The notes beneath the pieces are model-generated. The model saw only the letters and a list, made by a program, of their open reading frames with translations. It was not told the DNA's origin and did no database searches. DNA of 64,000 nt. Origin: Tistrella mobilis (GTDB taxonomy: Bacteria > Pseudomonadota > Alphaproteobacteria > Tistrellales > Tistrellaceae). Location of the stretch: the NCBI RefSeq assembly GCF_039634785.1, contig NZ_JBBIAB010000001.1:558001-622000 (forward strand), given 5' to 3'. A program made the position numbers and the translations under genes. This document shows, piece after piece, positions 16,717-50,277 of the stretch (position 1 is the first letter of the stretch; the number at the start of each line of letters is the position of its first letter).

Positions 16717-17405
16717 CCAGATCCTTCTCTCCGCCGGCCGACGACCGGATCCGGCCGATGGGCCCGGGGGTCATCCGCGACGCGCATGGCTATCCGGCGC
16801 TGCGGCCCGATCTGGACCTGATCGCCGGCATGGTGGAGCCTCAGGCCCGGGTTCTCGACATCGGCTGCGGTGACGGGGTGTTGCTGCACTATCTGGACCG
16901 GGTGAAGGGCTGCGACGGCCGCGGCATCGAGATCAGCCAGCAGGGCGTGCAGGAATCGGTCGCTCGTGGCCTGTCGGTGATCCAGGGCGATGCGGACCAC
17001 GATCTCGACTTCTTCCCCGATGATGCCTTCGACGTGGTCGTGCTGAGCCAGACCCTGCAGGCGACCCGGCGGCCGGACATGGTGATCCGAAATCTGGTGC
17101 GCATCGGCCGACGGGCGATCGTGTCCTTCCCCAATTTCGGTCACTGGCGCTGCCGGATGCATCTTCTGGTCCGCGGACGGATGCCGCGGACGCGCGGACT
17201 GCCCTATGCCTGGTACGACACGCCCAACATCCACCTCTGCACGATCACCGATTTCGTCCGGTCCTGTGCACATGCCGGCGTGCGGATCGAAATCTCGCTC
17301 GCGCTCGACAGTCGCGGCCGGGTGGTGCGCCGCAATGCGCCGGACGGCTATGCCAATCTGATCGGCGAGATCGGGATGTTCGTGCTGAGCCGCGACCGGG
17401 GGTGA
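16713..17405 (+). CDS. metW: MetW methyltransferase-fold protein
   Basis: A 230-aa class I methyltransferase-fold protein. The SAM-binding motif I is [15 protein letters not shown], with an acidic motif after strand 2 (GIEISQQG) and the family C-terminal signature [18 protein letters not shown]. MetW is invariably found beside metX in many proteobacteria and is reported to be needed for full MetX activity; a true methyl acceptor is not known. The ATG overlaps the metX stop by four bases, so the two proteins are made together. The gene ends 9 bases from a convergent kinase gene. Confidence 0.95.
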
Positions 17406-17414
17406 TGCCGGCGG

Positions 17415-18677
17415 TCAGGCGGCGGGCAGGGTGACGCGAACCGTGGTTCCGATGCCTTCGGTGCTGTCGATATCGAGCCGGCCACCCTGCAATTCCATCA
17501 GGCTGCGCGAGATGTAGAGGCCAAGCCCCGTGCCCTGATGCTTGTGATCGCTTTCCACCCGCACGAAAGGCTGGCCGAGACCGGCCAGCCGGCTGGCCGG
17601 GATGCCGATGCCCTCGTCACTGACCTCCAGCCCGGCATGATCCTGATCCGGCCGGAAGATCCGCAGGGTGACCCGGCCGTCGGGCCGGTTGAACTTGAGG
17701 GCATTGCTGACGAGGTTGAGCGCGACCTGGGTCAGCGCCCGCCGGTCGCCGCGGGCGGTGACCGGCGTATCCGGCGCCCGGATCTCCACCGCTTTCGCAT
17801 CCGCCCCGGCCATCGCAAGGGCGTCGGCGGCAACCCCGGCCAGGTCCACCGGTTCCGCAGCCAGCGTCATGCGCCCGGCCTCGATCTTGGACAGATCGAG
17901 CAGATCGTCGATCAGGGTCAGCAGGTGCCGGCCGCTGGTGGCGATGATCCGGGTATAATCCTGATAGCGCGGAGAGCCGAGGGGGCCGTACATCTCGGCC
18001 GACATGATCTCGGCGAAACCGATGATCGCGTTCAACGGCGTGCGCAGCTCGTGGCTCATGCCGGCAAGGAAGGTGGTTTTGGTCGCGCTGGCGGCCTCGG
18101 CGCGGGCCTTGGCTTCGAAGACCGCATCGTCTGCCCGTCGCCGCCCGATCGCCACGGCGGCGAGTGCAGCCATATGTGCGGCCGTCCGCAGATGCTGGCG
18201 GGTAGGGCCGCGGCGATCGGAGAAGTAGATCGCGAATGTGCCGATCGTCCGTCTTTCCGGATCACGGATCGGCGTGGACCAGCAGGCTCTGAGCCCGGCG
18301 GTCTCTGCCAGATCACGATAGTCGGCCCAAAGCGGACTCTCGCGGATATCCTCGACCACGACCTGGCGGCCGGTATAGGCGGCTGTGCCGCATGAGCCGG
18401 CCGAAGGTCCGATCTCCAGGCCGTCGATGGCGGCATTGTAGGCCTGCGGGAGGTGCGGAGCCGCGCCATGACGCAGCTTCCGGTCGTCGTCGATGAGCAG
18501 GACTGAACAGGCCGATCCGTCGATCAGGCGTTCCATCGCCGTGCAGATGATGGTCAGCACCCGTTCAAGCGGCCATCCCCGGGCGAGTGCGCGCAAGGCT
18601 GCCCGATCGGCCGCGGCGAGCGTGCGCCGCCAGGCGGTATCGGGTTTGACCGGAAAATCTGGAGAGTTGCGGCTCAT
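17415..18677 (-). CDS. soluble GAF-domain sensor histidine kinase
   Basis: A 420-aa histidine kinase with no membrane helix. A GAF domain spans about residues 35-180 (MERLIDGSACSVLLID, GSCGTAAYTGRQVVVEDI, and the ACWSTPI strand). The HisKA dimerisation helix has the phospho-acceptor His209 in GMSHELRTPLNAIIGF. The ATPase domain has NLVSNALKF, DEGIGIP and GTGLGLYI. Start at 18677 is preferred because 40 upstream residues are cysteine/tryptophan-rich run-through. There is no response regulator beside it. It is divergent from the TRAP transporter, which could be its target only by inference. Confidence 0.92.
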   Translation of the reverse strand: MSRNSPDFPVKPDTAWRRTLAAADRAALRALARGWPLERVLTIICTAMERLIDGSACSVLLIDDDRKLRHGAAPHLPQAYNAAIDGLEIGPSAGSCGTAAYTGRQVVVEDIRESPLWADYRDLAETAGLRACWSTPIRDPERRTIGTFAIYFSDRRGPTRQHLRTAAHMAALAAVAIGRRRADDAVFEAKARAEAASATKTTFLAGMSHELRTPLNAIIGFAEIMSAEMYGPLGSPRYQDYTRIIATSGRHLLTLIDDLLDLSKIEAGRMTLAAEPVDLAGVAADALAMAGADAKAVEIRAPDTPVTARGDRRALTQVALNLVSNALKFNRPDGRVTLRIFRPDQDHAGLEVSDEGIGIPASRLAGLGQPFVRVESDHKHQGTGLGLYISRSLMELQGGRLDIDSTEGIGTTVRVTLPAA

Positions 18678-31615: not shown

Positions 31616-34600
31616 TCAGGCGCCTTCTCCCCGTGCCTGATCGGGGGGCGTTGCGCCCTCGTCCTGTCCGTCGGGCCGTTCGGCACCTCCCGGCAGCCAG
31701 CGGCGCACGGCCGCAACCAGATCGTCGCGCCTGAAGGGTTTCGAGAGATGATCGTCCATGCCCGCGGCACGGCAGATCTCTGCTGCCTCTCGTCCGGCAT
31801 TGGCGGTCAGGGCCAGGATCGGGGTGCGGCCTCGCGGGCCCTCGATGGACCGGATGCGGCGGGTTGCCTCCAGCCCGCTCAGGCCCGGCATCTGGACGTC
31901 CATCAGGATCAGGTCGTAGTCGTGGGCCGTTGCGGCCTCGACCGCGGCATTGCCTTCACTCACGCTGTCGACCGTATAGCCGGCCCGCTGCAGGGCGCGG
32001 GCGGTCAGCATCTGGTTCATGGCGTTGTCCTCGGCAAGCAGGATGCGGATGGGTGTGCGGGGTGGTACCTCATCCGTGTCGGCGTGTCGGGGCATGGTCT
32101 CCGGTCCTGGATGTCGTCGGGTCGGGATCCTTGAAGGCTCGGGAGCCAGCAGGGAGTGGGCATTGGCCAGGCTTCGCGGGGAGGGCAGAACGGCCGGTAG
32201 CTCGAACCAGAAGCGGCTGCCCTCTCCGGCGACACTGTCGCAACCGATGCGCCCGCCTAGAAGATCGGTCAGGCGTCTGACGATCGCCAGACCAAGGCCG
32301 GTGCCGCGTGCCATGGCGGCGGCCTGATCGGCGCCGGCCTGGTAGTATTCTTCGAACAGCTGCCGGGTCTGCTCGGGCGGGATGCCGACACCGGTGTCGA
32401 TCACCTCCATCCGCAGAACAGGCGGGCCGCCCGTCGTGGCCGGCACCAGATCGAGGCAGAGTGTGACCCGCCCGGCCTCGGTGAACTTCACGGCATTGCC
32501 GGTCAGGTTCACCAGAATCTGGCGCAGCCGCCTCTGGTCTCCCATCAGCCGAGGTGGCACCGAAGGCGCGGCCTCGACGACGATTTCCAGCCCCTTGCGG
32601 CGTGCCTGCGGGTCGTACATCGCCTTGACGTCGCGGGCGAGGGCGACGGGGTCGAACGGCTTGGGATCGATGGCGAGCTTGCCTGCCTCGATCCGGGACA
32701 GATCCAGCACGTCGTCGAGCAGGTCGAGCAGCAGTTCCGAGGCGCGGCGCATGATCTGGGCCAGGCCGGCCTGCTCCGGGTCGAGGTCGGTTTCGTCCAG
32801 AAAATGCAGGGCGTTCAGGATCGCGTTCAGCGGGTTACGGATCTCGTGGGACACCGTGGCCAGAAAGCGCGACCGCGCCTCTGCGGCGCCGAGTGCGCGT
32901 TCACGGGCGTCTTCCAGCGCATCCTGCATGCGACGCCGATCGGTGACATCGGTGTAGATGGTCAGGGTGCCGCCATCGTCAACCGGCAGGCGAATCAGTT
33001 CCAGCCGGCGGCCATCGGGGCGGACATGTTCTACCGGTTGCCCAAGCAAGGCGGGGTCGCGCATCCGGGTGAGCCAGGCTTCCGCCAGTCGTTCCGGATC
33101 ACCGGGGCCGAATTCGCCGCGACGGGCGACGAAGCGGACCAGTTCGGTCATCGGATTGCCGGGTCGGGCGATGCCGCTCGGGATCTCCAGCAGTTCCTGG
33201 AAGCGCCGGTTGACCACCACGATGTCGAGCGTGCGGTCCACCAGCATCAGGCCCTGTTCCATCGCATCGATGGTCAGGCGCAGCACTTCGGTCTGGCGGG
33301 CCAGTTCGCGCTCGGCGGCGCGTCTGGTCGTGACGTCGGTGAAGGTCATCACCAGCCCGCCGCCGGGAAAGGGCGCGCTGGCCATTTCGAGCACCGTCCC
33401 GTCGGGCCGGCGGCGTTCCCAGCTTTGCGGCCAGGGCCTGCGCAATGCCGACAACCGGCGGGTGACTTCGGCGAAGGCCGGCCCGGTGCCGAATTCTCCG
33501 CGCCGGGCCATCAGGTGCATCAGCTGTTCGAAATCGGCCAGGGGTGGGCAGTCCTCGGCCATCAGGCCGTTCATCTCCAGGAAGCGCCGGTTGTGGAGCA
33601 CCACACGGAACCCGGCATCAAGCAGGCACAGCCCCTGGCGCATGCTGTCCAGCGTGGTGGAGAGCAGGCGGGAATTCTCGGTGGCGGCCCGGTCGGCAGC
33701 CACCCGTTCGCCGACATCGCGCAGGCTGGCGTGGAATTCGGCGGGCGTGCCGGTGCGCGGGTCGCGGATCATTCGGGCCCCGGCCTCGACCCAGACGGGG
33801 CGCCCGGTGGCGTGACGCATGCGCAGGGTCGCCCGATCGCGACCGTGCTCGACAAGCGCGGTCATGTGGGCGGCAAGCACGTCGGCATCCTCGGTCACGA
33901 CGAGGTCGGCCAGACGCCGGCCGATCAGCCGGTCGGGCTCCAGCCCCAGAAGGGCCTGCGATGCCGGAGAGGCGTAGAGGATGGTACCTTCCGGATCCTG
34001 ACGCAGGATCAGGTCGCCGGCGTTTTCGGCCAGCAGCCGATAGCGCCATTCGCTGTCGCGCAGCGCCGCGTCGATCTGGCGCGCCTCGGTGACGTCTTCA
34101 TAGATCGCGACCGAGCCGCCGTCGGCCATGGGGTTGTGGGTGATGCGGATCACCCGCCCCTGGGCGGAGGTTTCGGTCAGCGTGGCGGTTTCGCGCATCC
34201 GGGCAAGGGCCAGCCGCTTCTCGATCCGCTCAGGGCGTGTCGTCTCCGCCACCTCGTAAAGCGCCTGCTCCGCAATTCTGGCAAGCGGTGTGCCCGGCTG
34301 TGTCAGGTCCTCGGGCACCCCCATCAACCCGGCATAGCGCTGATTGCAGGCCACCAGCACCATATCCTGGTCGAAGATCGCAATCCCATGGCCAAGGGCC
34401 GCGAAGGCCCCGTCCAGCAGCCTGCCGCGATCTGCGGCTTCGGCGGTACGGGCGGCGACCTCCCCCTCAAGGTCGCGGGTATGGCGATCGAGAGCCGCGC
34501 GCATGCGCTCGATGCCGTCTGCCAGCTCCACGATCTCGCGCGCGCCGCCGACGGCGGGCACCGGCCGGATCGTGTCGCCTCCGCCCAGCTCCGCCACCGC

Positions 34601-45717: not shown

Positions 45718-46590
45718 TCAGGCGAGCAGGGACGGGTGGAGCGTCCCCTCGAAACTGGTCGCGACCGGGCCCGACATCAAGACGCGATCGTCTTCGGTCC
45801 AGGTGATGACCAGCGGGCCGCCGTCGAGCACGATCTCGACCGTACGGCCCGTGAGGCCGCGGCGGATGGCCGCAACGGCCGTGGCGCAGGCGCCGGTGCC
45901 GCAGGCGGCGGTGATGCCCGCACCGCGTTCCCAGACCCGCATGCGCAGCCTGTCGGGGCCCAGAAGATGGGCGACTTCGACATTGGTGCGCTCAGGGAAG
46001 GCGGGGTGACGCTCGATCATCGGGCCCCAGCGGGTGAGATCGATCGCCTCGGCATTGTCGACGAAGAAGACCGCATGCGGGTTGCCGACATTGACCGCCA
46101 CCGGCAGCTTCAGCGGCCCGACTTCCACAGCCTCCACAGCCAGCGTGTCGGCGGGGGCGGCCAGCGGAATCTGCCGCCAGTCGAGCCGGGCGGGGCCCAT
46201 GTCGACGGTGACCGTGCCGGCTTCGTGCTGCTCTGCATCGCGGCTTGCCCGGAGCAGGCCCGAGATCGTGGCGATGGTCGCGCGGCCGAGCCCGCTTTCG
46301 TCCATCAGCAGGGCGCCGACACAGCGGGTGGCGTTGCCGCAGGCGCCGACCTCGCCACCATCGGCATTGTGGATGCGCATCACCGCATCGGCACCGCCGG
46401 CGGCGATCGGGTCGTCATCGGTCGGATCGATCAGAATGAACTGGTCACAGCCGACGCCGTGCCGCCGGTCCGAGATCCGGCGGATGGTTGCGTCGTCGAG
46501 GACGAGGCCCCGGGCCGGGCCGCTCCGTCGGTCGATGACGACGAAGTCGTTGCCGAGCCCGTGCATCTTGAGGAACGGGATTCTGATCAT
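45718..46590 (-). CDS. dapF: diaminopimelate epimerase
   Basis: A 290-aa cofactor-free epimerase that makes meso-diaminopimelate for lysine and peptidoglycan. The two catalytic cysteines are C84 (GEVGACGNATRC) and C230 (AACGTGACATA). FLKMHGLGNDFVVID at the N-terminus is the family start. ATG at 46590 is chosen on that basis; a longer frame adds 13 residues. It heads the dapF-mtaB-ftsY-yciB series. Confidence 0.96.
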   Translation of the reverse strand: MIRIPFLKMHGLGNDFVVIDRRSGPARGLVLDDATIRRISDRRHGVGCDQFILIDPTDDDPIAAGGADAVMRIHNADGGEVGACGNATRCVGALLMDESGLGRATIATISGLLRASRDAEQHEAGTVTVDMGPARLDWRQIPLAAPADTLAVEAVEVGPLKLPVAVNVGNPHAVFFVDNAEAIDLTRWGPMIERHPAFPERTNVEVAHLLGPDRLRMRVWERGAGITAACGTGACATAVAAIRRGLTGRTVEIVLDGGPLVITWTEDDRVLMSGPVATSFEGTLHPSLLA

Positions 46591-46667
46591 AGCTCCGATC
46601 TTATAGGCTTCGGCCCGGCCGCCGTCCAATCAATTCGCGGCCGTCAGGGCAGGGTTGCAGACGGCGA

Positions 46668-48746
46668 TCATGCCGGAATTTCAGTCTGTTGACCGGTCGA
46701 AGGCAGGGCCGCCGGCGGTGCCTGCACCGGCAGAAAGCAGGTGATCCGCGCGCCGCCGCCCGGGGCATCGTCGATCCGGATCCGGCCGCCATGCAGTTCG
46801 ATCAGGCTGCGGGCAAGCGGCAGGCCGAGGCCCACCCCGGCCTTGCGTTCGCCGCGGCGCCGGCGCCAGAAGCGCTCGAAGACCTGTTCGCGCTCGTCCT
46901 CGGGGATGCCGGGGCCCTGGTCCGAGATGGTGATCGCCACCACAGACGGAAGACCTGCTGCCGGATCTGCGGGCCGCGCCTCGGCTGCCATGAGGACGCG
47001 GGTGTCGACAGGGGTGAAGCGCAGCGCATTGCCGAGCAGGTTGTAGAGGGCCTGACGCAGGCGCAGGCCGTCGGCATCGATCGTGCCGCATTCTGGCGGA
47101 CAGTCCAGATCGATCGACACCGAGGCGGCCTTGGCGCGCTGGCGGGCGAGATCCGCCACCGACCGCAAAAGCTGGCAGACATCCACCGGGCGACGGTTGA
47201 GGGTGACGTCACCCGCATCGATGGAGGCAAGGTCGATCATGTCGTTGATCAGCACCAGCAGATGTTCCGAGGCATGCACGATATCTTCGGCATAGCCGCG
47301 CTGGCGCAGGTTCAGCGGCCCGGCCATTTCGCTGGCCAGAAGCTGGGCGAAGCCGATCACCGAATTCAGCGGGGTGCGCAACTCGTAGGAGACATGGGCC
47401 ACAAATTCGGATTTGAGGCGATCGGCTTCGGCAAGGGCCGCGGCCTTGTCGCGCAGGGCACGTTCCACCCGGATGGTATCGGTGACATCGGCGAGCGACA
47501 CCAGGGCGGCGCCGTCCGGAAGCGGGGTGGCGGCGATGGAGAAGAAGCGGTCGCCGGCGAGTTCAAGCGTCATCTCGCCCCGGCGGCGTTCGACCAGGGC
47601 CTCGTCCACCACCTGCCGGACCAGCTCCAGATCGTCGGCGCGGGTGGCGAGCGGTCGGGCGGCATCCAGCAGCTGGCCGAGCGGTGTTTCGATCGAGACC
47701 TGATCGGGCCGGGCCTCCAGCAATCGGGCGAAGGTCTGATTGGCGAGGCCGAGCCGACCATCGGAGCGGAACACCGCCAGTCCCTCTGCCAGGGCATCGA
47801 TGGTCGCGCGCTGCACGGCGATCAGGGTGTTGTAGGACCGCTCCAGCGCCAGCCGGTCGCTGACATCCTCGTAGATGTGGACCAGCCCGCCCTGGCGGTG
47901 GGGAGCGATGATGACGTGGAGCGTGCGGCCGTCGGGCAGATGGACCAGTTCCTCCATCGGCGCGAACAGGCTGGTATAGAGCGCCAGCCGGTCGCGCTTC
48001 CAGGCCGGGAAGTTCACCACCTCGGGCAGGCGCCGGCTTTCGCGCAGGCGTTCAAGCAGCTCGCCTTCCCGCGGGCGCTGGTCCAGAAAGGCGGCATCCA
48101 GATGCCACAGCCGGGCGAAGGCCCCGTTCCAGAAGGTCAGGCGCATATCGGCGCCGAAGACCGCAATGCCGCTGGTGACGCTTTCGAAGGCTTCGATATA
48201 GCCGGCTTCCACCCGCTCCATCGCCGCTTCCGCTTCGGCGAGCGCCGTGGCGTCGAGAGCGAGGCCCACGGCAGGTCGGTCGGTTCCGGGCGGAATCTCC
48301 AGGATCTCGTATACCCGGCGCACGCCGTCGGTCACCACGGCGCGGCGTTCGCGCATCGGCAGGCCGCGATCGCGGGCGGTGCGGGCAAGAGCCCGGGCCT
48401 GGGCGATCAGGGCGCGGTTGGCGAATTCCGGCCGTTCATGCCCGTCATCGCCCAGCTGAAAAGCATCGAAGGCGGCGTTGTGGCCATCGATCGCGCCGCT
48501 GATGTCGCGCCACCAGACCGGCAAAGGCAGGGCATCGAGCAGGGCCGTGGCGGCATCTGCCCGCGCCGAGGCGGTCTCGGCGGCGACGGCAGCCGCTTCA
48601 TGGGCGCGGCGTTCGGCGGCGAGCTCACGCTCGATCGATTGCAGGCGTTCGGCAATGGCTCGCCCACGCGCACGCAGCCTGATTGCGTACACGGCAAGGC
48701 CGGCCGAAAGGGCCGTCATGACTGCGGCGACGACGATCGGATCCAT
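46668..48746 (-). CDS. DivL-like PAS sensor kinase with Tyr in place of phospho-His
   Basis: A 692-aa protein with one N-terminal membrane helix (VAAVMTALSAGLAVYAI), a coiled coil, several PAS-type modules (ALPLPVWWRDISGAIDGHNA, GIAVFGADMRLTFWNGAF, GLAVFRSDGRLGLANQTF), a DHp helix and an ATPase domain. The H-box reads HVSYELRTPLNSVIGF: Tyr454 stands where kinases have the phosphorylated His. The ATP-binding boxes are intact (NLLGNALRF, DQGPGIP, GVGLGLPL). A tyrosine at this position is the known mark of Caulobacter DivL, which steers CckA and cell-cycle control. DivL identity is inferred from H-box and layout. Confidence 0.85.
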   Translation of the reverse strand: MDPIVVAAVMTALSAGLAVYAIRLRARGRAIAERLQSIERELAAERRAHEAAAVAAETASARADAATALLDALPLPVWWRDISGAIDGHNAAFDAFQLGDDGHERPEFANRALIAQARALARTARDRGLPMRERRAVVTDGVRRVYEILEIPPGTDRPAVGLALDATALAEAEAAMERVEAGYIEAFESVTSGIAVFGADMRLTFWNGAFARLWHLDAAFLDQRPREGELLERLRESRRLPEVVNFPAWKRDRLALYTSLFAPMEELVHLPDGRTLHVIIAPHRQGGLVHIYEDVSDRLALERSYNTLIAVQRATIDALAEGLAVFRSDGRLGLANQTFARLLEARPDQVSIETPLGQLLDAARPLATRADDLELVRQVVDEALVERRRGEMTLELAGDRFFSIAATPLPDGAALVSLADVTDTIRVERALRDKAAALAEADRLKSEFVAHVSYELRTPLNSVIGFAQLLASEMAGPLNLRQRGYAEDIVHASEHLLVLINDMIDLASIDAGDVTLNRRPVDVCQLLRSVADLARQRAKAASVSIDLDCPPECGTIDADGLRLRQALYNLLGNALRFTPVDTRVLMAAEARPADPAAGLPSVVAITISDQGPGIPEDEREQVFERFWRRRRGERKAGVGLGLPLARSLIELHGGRIRIDDAPGGGARITCFLPVQAPPAALPSTGQQTEIPA

Positions 48747-48821
48747 GGCCCGAGTTTAGCAGTCATGGCCGGGGCCGCAATCACGACACCGCACGGATCG
48801 TGCCATTGGCCCTGAACGCGA

Positions 48822-48851
48822 CGCCGCCGCCGGGCGGACCCGGCGGCGGCG
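48822..48851 (-). terminator. hairpin after ahcY
   Basis: A 13-bp GC stem (48822-48834 with 48839-48851) and loop CGGA, 34 bases beyond the ahcY stop. No U tract follows on the minus strand. Confidence 0.5.
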
Positions 48852-48885
48852 CAAGGGTGATGCGATCCCGCGAGGCGGGCGTCGC

Positions 48886-50181
48886 TCAGTAGCGGTAGTA
48901 TTCCGGCTTGAACGGGCCTTCCGCCGGCACGCCGATATACTGCGCCTGCTTGTCGCTGAGCCTGGTCAGCTTCACGCCCAGCTTGTCGAGATGCAGCGCC
49001 GCCACCTTCTCGTCCAGATGCTTGGGCAGGGTGTAGACCTTGCGCTCATAGGCCTGGGCGTTGTTCCAGAGCTCGATCTGCGCCAGGACCTGATTGGTGA
49101 ACGACGCGCTCATCACGAAGCTCGGATGGCCCGTGGCGCAGCCCAGGTTCACCAGACGACCCTTGGCGAGCAGGATCAGGCGCTTGCCACCGGGCAGCGT
49201 GATCTCATCGACCTGCGGCTTGATCTCGTTCCACTCGTAATTGTGCAGGGCCGAGACCTGAATCTCGCTGTCGAAGTGGCCGATATTGCAGACGATCGCC
49301 CGGTCCTTCATCTCACGCATATGGTCGAGCGTGATGATGTCGACATTGCCGGTGGCGGTGACGAAGATGTCGCCCTGCGGCGCCGCCTCGTCCATGGTCG
49401 TGACCTGATAGCCGTCCATGGCGGCCTGCAGGGCGCAGATCGGGTCGATCTCGGTGACCAGCACCCGGGCGCCCTGGCCGCGCAGCGCCTCGGCCGAGCC
49501 CTTGCCGACATCGCCATAGCCCGCAACCACGGCCACCTTGCCGGCCAGCATCACGTCGGTCGCGCGCTTGATGCCGTCGATCAGGCTTTCGCGGCAGCCA
49601 TAGAGGTTGTCGAACTTCGACTTGGTGACGCTGTCGTTCACATTGATCGCCGGGCAGGCCAGCTTGCCGGTCTTGGCCATCTCGTAGAGGCGCAGCACGC
49701 CGGTCGTGGTCTCTTCCGAGATGCCGCGGACCTCGTTCATCAGCTCCGGATACTTCTGGTGCATGATGAGGGTCAGGTCGCCGCCGTCGTCCAGGATCAT
49801 GTTCGGGGTCCAGCCATCGGGCCCCTTGATGGTCTGCTCGACGCACCACTCGTATTCCTCTTCGGTCTCACCCTTCCAGGCGAAGACCGGGATGCCGGCG
49901 GCGGCGATGCCGGCCGCTGCCTGATCCTGGGTCGAGAAGATGTTGCACGACGACCAGCGGACCTCGGCGCCCAGCGCGATCAGGGTCTCGATCAGCACGG
50001 CGGTCTGAATGGTCATGTGCAGGCAGCCGGCGATCCGCGCACCCGCCAGCGGCTTCGACGCGCCATATTCATCGCGCAGCGCCATCAGCCCCGGCATTTC
50101 GGTCTCGGCCAGCGAGATCTCCTTGCGGCCCCACTCGGCGAGGGCGATGTCCTTGACCTTGTAGTCCGTGAACGTGGTCAT
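48886..50181 (-). CDS. ahcY: S-adenosylhomocysteine hydrolase
   Basis: A 431-aa NAD-dependent enzyme that splits S-adenosylhomocysteine to adenosine and homocysteine, relieving product inhibition of methyltransferases. The NAD-binding loop is [18 protein letters not shown], and the substrate segments [35 protein letters not shown] and [11 protein letters not shown] are intact. The C-terminal KPEYYRY supplies the Lys/Tyr that contact NAD. ATG at 50181 follows AGGAG and matches the usual start; a 20-residue upstream extension is rejected. The operator-like palindrome at 50278-50297 lies just before it. Confidence 0.97.
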
Positions 50182-50277
50182 CGAGGGCGCTCCTGATGGG
50201 CATAGCGGCTTTGCCGGGAAACCGGCAGACGTCTCTCCCACTGGTTATAGCCCTGGCCGGCCTGATCGGGCAAGGGA

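Follow-up and report, generated by a model that had tools for sequence, protein, structure and literature searches.

Does a protein with the fold of a histidine kinase and a tyrosine in place of the phospho-acceptor histidine represent DivL, the regulator of CckA in Caulobacter, or is it an ordinary kinase that has changed at a single position? The question is raised by the minus-strand ORF 46668-48746 of a 64,000-nt stretch of the Tistrella mobilis genome (hereafter, the window), which a preliminary description, made from the sequence alone, had read as a DivL-like kinase. When all the lines of analysis are considered jointly, the ORF is very probably the Tistrella orthologue of DivL, that is, a PAS-containing and probably membrane-anchored protein with a histidine-kinase fold and a Tyr phospho-acceptor, whose role would resemble that of its Caulobacter counterpart.

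Architecture of the tyrosine-bearing ORF

The ORF opens with an ATG and encodes 692 aa. Its H-box reads HVSYELRTPLNS, in which residue 454, at the phospho-acceptor position, is a Tyr, and the acidic Glu455 next to it is retained. The N, G1, F and G2 ATP-binding boxes are intact (NLLGNALRF, DQGPGIP, FERFW and GVGLGLPLA, respectively). The preliminary description had reported both the Tyr in place of His and the intact boxes, and the reading of the ORF, the Pfam searches and the inspection of the boxes showed that it was exact on the two points. Pfam recognised HisKA (63 bits), HATPase_c (91 bits), PAS_7 and further PAS matches in the 692-aa protein, with the PAS domains preceding HisKA and HATPase_c, as in DivL (Table 1).

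Table 1. Features of the divL locus, in positions of the window
Feature	Position	Strand	Remark
dapF (diaminopimelate epimerase), downstream neighbour	45718..46629	-	Tistrella only in survey
divL orthologue, 692 aa	46668..48746	-	
HATPase_c (CA), residues 559-675, N/G1/F/G2 intact	46722..47072	-	Pfam
HisKA (DHp), residues 445-512	47211..47414	-	Pfam
Tyr454 codon, phospho-acceptor position in H-box HVSYELRTPLNS	47385..47387 (complement)	-	
Second PAS region (PAS_4), residues 317-424	47475..47798	-	Pfam
PAS_7, residues 188-301	47844..48185	-	Pfam
Hydrophobic segment near the N-terminus (residues 3-24), probable membrane anchor	48675..48740	-	Read by eye from sequence
ahcY (S-adenosylhomocysteine hydrolase), conserved upstream neighbour	48886..50241	-	

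A sequencing error or a chance event as the origin of Tyr454 was ruled out, because the same Tyr is found in two other Tistrella assemblies (L031/L108, from T. mobilis KA081020-065, and G001/L068), at 97% protein identity. Scanning of the 6.16-Mb genome with a Tyr-H-box pattern returned a single site, located at this ORF, and none in the reversed control. This is the sole Tyr among the kinase loci of the genome whose H-box is recognised by the regular expression, all the others carrying His. The same window also contains two more histidine kinases with ordinary His H-boxes (32180-33700 and 17382-18143, both on the minus strand), one of them in a 1356-aa open frame.

Identity, neighbourhood and partners

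Among solved structures, the best match of the Tistrella protein was Caulobacter DivL (4q20, a chain that comprises the kinase region only), with 163.7 bits and an E-value of 5.2e-47, followed by a chain with 126 bits and 9.5e-36. In the reverse search, 4q20 scored 159 bits on the Tistrella protein and 125 on the next kinase of the same genome. We also searched a Caulobacteraceae-like genome (G308), a relative of C. crescentus and not C. crescentus itself, in which the only match at E<=1e-50 was a protein (L207) 68.5% identical to 4q20. Thus, the reciprocal best-match check proposed together with the DivL identity gave DivL both ways. No equivalog model of DivL emerged from the libraries searched; the best 25 NCBIfam matches included no DivL model and were all far under their cut-offs. 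A contig scan with the single protein detected orthologues only in T. mobilis and in one Robiginitomaculum MAG, the remaining matches being generic kinases.

As histidine-kinase-like proteins are numerous in the genome (55 matches), it is conceivable that one of them decayed by chance, and the preliminary description had itself named an ordinary kinase with a sporadic His-to-Tyr change as the reading that would oppose DivL. To separate both readings we rely on an IQ-TREE phylogeny of 51 rows, in which the phosphosite was masked with X, three own-genome rows excepted. In this tree the Tistrella protein, Caulobacter DivL and 26 orthologues from across the class were separated from 23 own-genome kinases with a support of 100/100. 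Since the protein groups with DivL and apart from the kinases of its own genome even when the site is masked, and since the Tyr is class-wide, ahcY synteny is shared and the best matches with Caulobacter-type DivL hold in both directions, a sporadic change is extremely unlikely. A second tree, built from the PAS and kinase regions, produced the same split between DivL and other kinases, with Tistrella DivL on a long branch. The DivL identity is therefore supported by the phylogeny as well as by the best matches.

The preliminary description had placed the gene between dapF and ahcY. Both neighbours are present as described, but they differ in their conservation: ahcY is the immediate upstream neighbour, in the same orientation, at 71 of the 119 loci whose upstream flank reaches 700 bp or more, whereas dapF was found downstream only in the three Tistrella loci of the survey. 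The ahcY-divL pairing is therefore old, and the association with dapF is local. A simple motif scan of the 48600-49100 region revealed neither a CtrA nor a GANTC site.

The genome of T. mobilis encodes CckA and CtrA, whose absence would have spoken against DivL, and ChpT and DivK too. The matches of the CtrA and DivK queries were confirmed independently: CtrA is 66% identical to the Caulobacter query and reaches 412.8 with its NCBIfam model (cut-off 350), and DivK matched the Caulobacter DivK structures at 8e-53. ChpT scored 65.8 with Pfam (cut-off 22.9) and matched solved ChpT structures. CckA was inseparable in the list of DivL-similar kinases, and we used instead the HDFNNLLT pattern, which gave one site. 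It corresponds to a 657-aa frame carrying PAS, HisKA, HATPase and receiver domains, which scored highest with the two CckA models of NCBIfam (620 and 497 bits) and matched the CckA crystal structures 5idj and 5idm. Both ChpT and CckA scored under their lineage-specific NCBIfam cut-offs. As regards GcrA, no PF07750 match was present in the whole genome, while Caulobacter was matched in the control. The best PleC/DivJ candidate by NCBIfam ranking is L002 (PdhS and DivJ models), far under cut-off. Around these genes, ctrA and chpT are ∼6 kb apart on one contig (G000:C4:276380-283595), the ORF upstream of cckA resembles, as read from the sequence, the end of flhB, and a 460-aa frame after divK starts with a receiver and resembles PleD.

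Proposed role of Tistrella DivL

Caulobacter DivL binds DivK~P through a kinase-like docking surface and controls CckA, and it can fulfil its essential functions without the CA domain and without phosphorylation of the DHp. Binding of DivK~P was not reduced by the Y550H substitution and was lost when R553, T557, Y562 or H579 were mutated (PMC4211667). Because of the orthology with Caulobacter DivL, we infer the same role in Tistrella, where DivL most likely lacks catalytic activity, senses DivK~P and controls CckA. By analogy with Caulobacter, its kinase-like part would pass no phosphate onward; it would instead serve as a docking module for the detection of phosphorylated DivK, and this detection would decide between the kinase and the phosphatase activity of CckA towards the ChpT-CtrA branch. 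The four docking positions speak against a straightforward transfer of DivK~P binding, as Tistrella keeps the Arg only, T557, Y562 and H579 being replaced by N461, F466 and Tyr485. Since N and F at those positions are the class-wide majority and the T557 and Y562 of Caulobacter are minority states, it is the residues of Caulobacter that are the unusual ones.

Alternatively, the protein could be catalytically active and autophosphorylate on Tyr454, the kind of activity that was originally proposed for Caulobacter DivL. Every ATP-binding box is intact, Glu455 is kept and the four ATP-binding signature residues checked are preserved in 103 of 126 Tyr-bearing relatives, all of which would suit such an activity. 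However, the dispensability of DHp phosphorylation and of the CA domain for the essential functions of Caulobacter DivL (PMC4211667), together with the Gln that 25 of 128 relatives carry in place of the acidic residue following the site, makes an active tyrosine kinase improbable.

The output of the pathway in Tistrella may be motility, division or both. Motility may well take the place of the cell cycle, because Rhodospirillum and Magnetospirillum can do without ctrA, whose most ancient function is considered to be flagellar control (PMC8116508). The earlier suggestion that the gene marks cell-cycle wiring has to be taken as tentative, considering that GcrA was not found and that CtrA is dispensable and governs motility in other early-branching alphaproteobacteria (PMC8116508).

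Histidine-bearing relatives and comparison with known systems

Alignment of 167 DivL-type rows, from a sample that is uneven across families so that the counts are not frequencies, yielded 126 rows with Tyr, 14 with His, 5 without the region and 22 with other residues. At least 2 of the 14 His rows (L089 and L263) resemble ordinary kinases or were weak matches, and are not DivL. In one genus (g41; L141 and L224-L227), the five genomes carry a His in the H-box (VASVSHELRTPLNTIIGFAE), a complete ATP-binding signature and ahcY directly upstream, which sets this DivL apart from the Tyr that has been reported for the whole class. A second kinase with a Tyr-H-box is absent in four of these five genomes, and the lone match in the other (VWYEFRSP, in G360) looks like chance. 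Another genus (g160; L179, L197, L198 and L199) presents, in four genomes, an ahcY-adjacent DivL that has His but whose N, G1 and G2 boxes are degenerate, which inverts the combination found in the Tyr forms. The placement of the His family differs between two trees, being the first branch inside the DivL clade in one (93/50) and joining one Tyr form in the other (91/68). We tentatively propose, as a possibility that we hold to be short of probable, that the DivL phosphosite is evolutionarily labile and that the g41 protein might be a genuine kinase, capable of being phosphorylated and of feeding the CckA branch, as either an ancestral or a regained form. Because one orthologue occurs in nature both with Tyr and with His, the long-standing question of the purpose of the Tyr could be tested directly. 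Separately, four ahcY-adjacent DivL-like frames (L255, L256, L258 and L259) align in the PAS part and have no kinase region, comparable to the short DivL reported in Rhodobacterales.

Our literature search found no paper naming Tistrella and CtrA together and no experiment on Tistrella DivL. The family has been surveyed class-wide (PMC2877005, PMC8116508), with the Tyr conserved throughout alphaproteobacterial DivL homologues except for an Ala in Magnetospirillum magneticum (PMC4211667). As this class-wide Tyr is already published, the Tistrella protein is an ordinary DivL, of a family and with a Tyr already known. Its interest lies in being a firmly placed DivL, accompanied by its full set of partners, from an early-branching alphaproteobacterium whose CtrA circuit is unstudied in the papers found. 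Moreover, chpT, cckA and divL have been reported in only 27-36% of Rhodospirillales, for which missed detection is suspected (PMC8116508), while the combination of ahcY synteny and a tree detects divL readily here.

Compared with the DivJ, PleC and PdhS kinases, which share the HisKA-HATPase_c module, Tistrella DivL differs in that they carry a His at the phosphosite, and the nearest own-genome kinases, such as L002, fall in the non-DivL clade. With DivL of other alphaproteobacteria, which acts upstream of CckA where tested, it shares PAS, HisKA and HATPase_c and probably a membrane region (S. meliloti, PMC11500502; class survey, PMC2877005). Unlike Caulobacter crescentus DivL (4q20), it differs at three of the four DivK~P contact positions and belongs to a genome in which GcrA was not found; like it, it has the H-box Tyr, the PAS region before the DHp-CA fold, the best match both ways, and DivK, CckA, ChpT and CtrA encoded in its genome.
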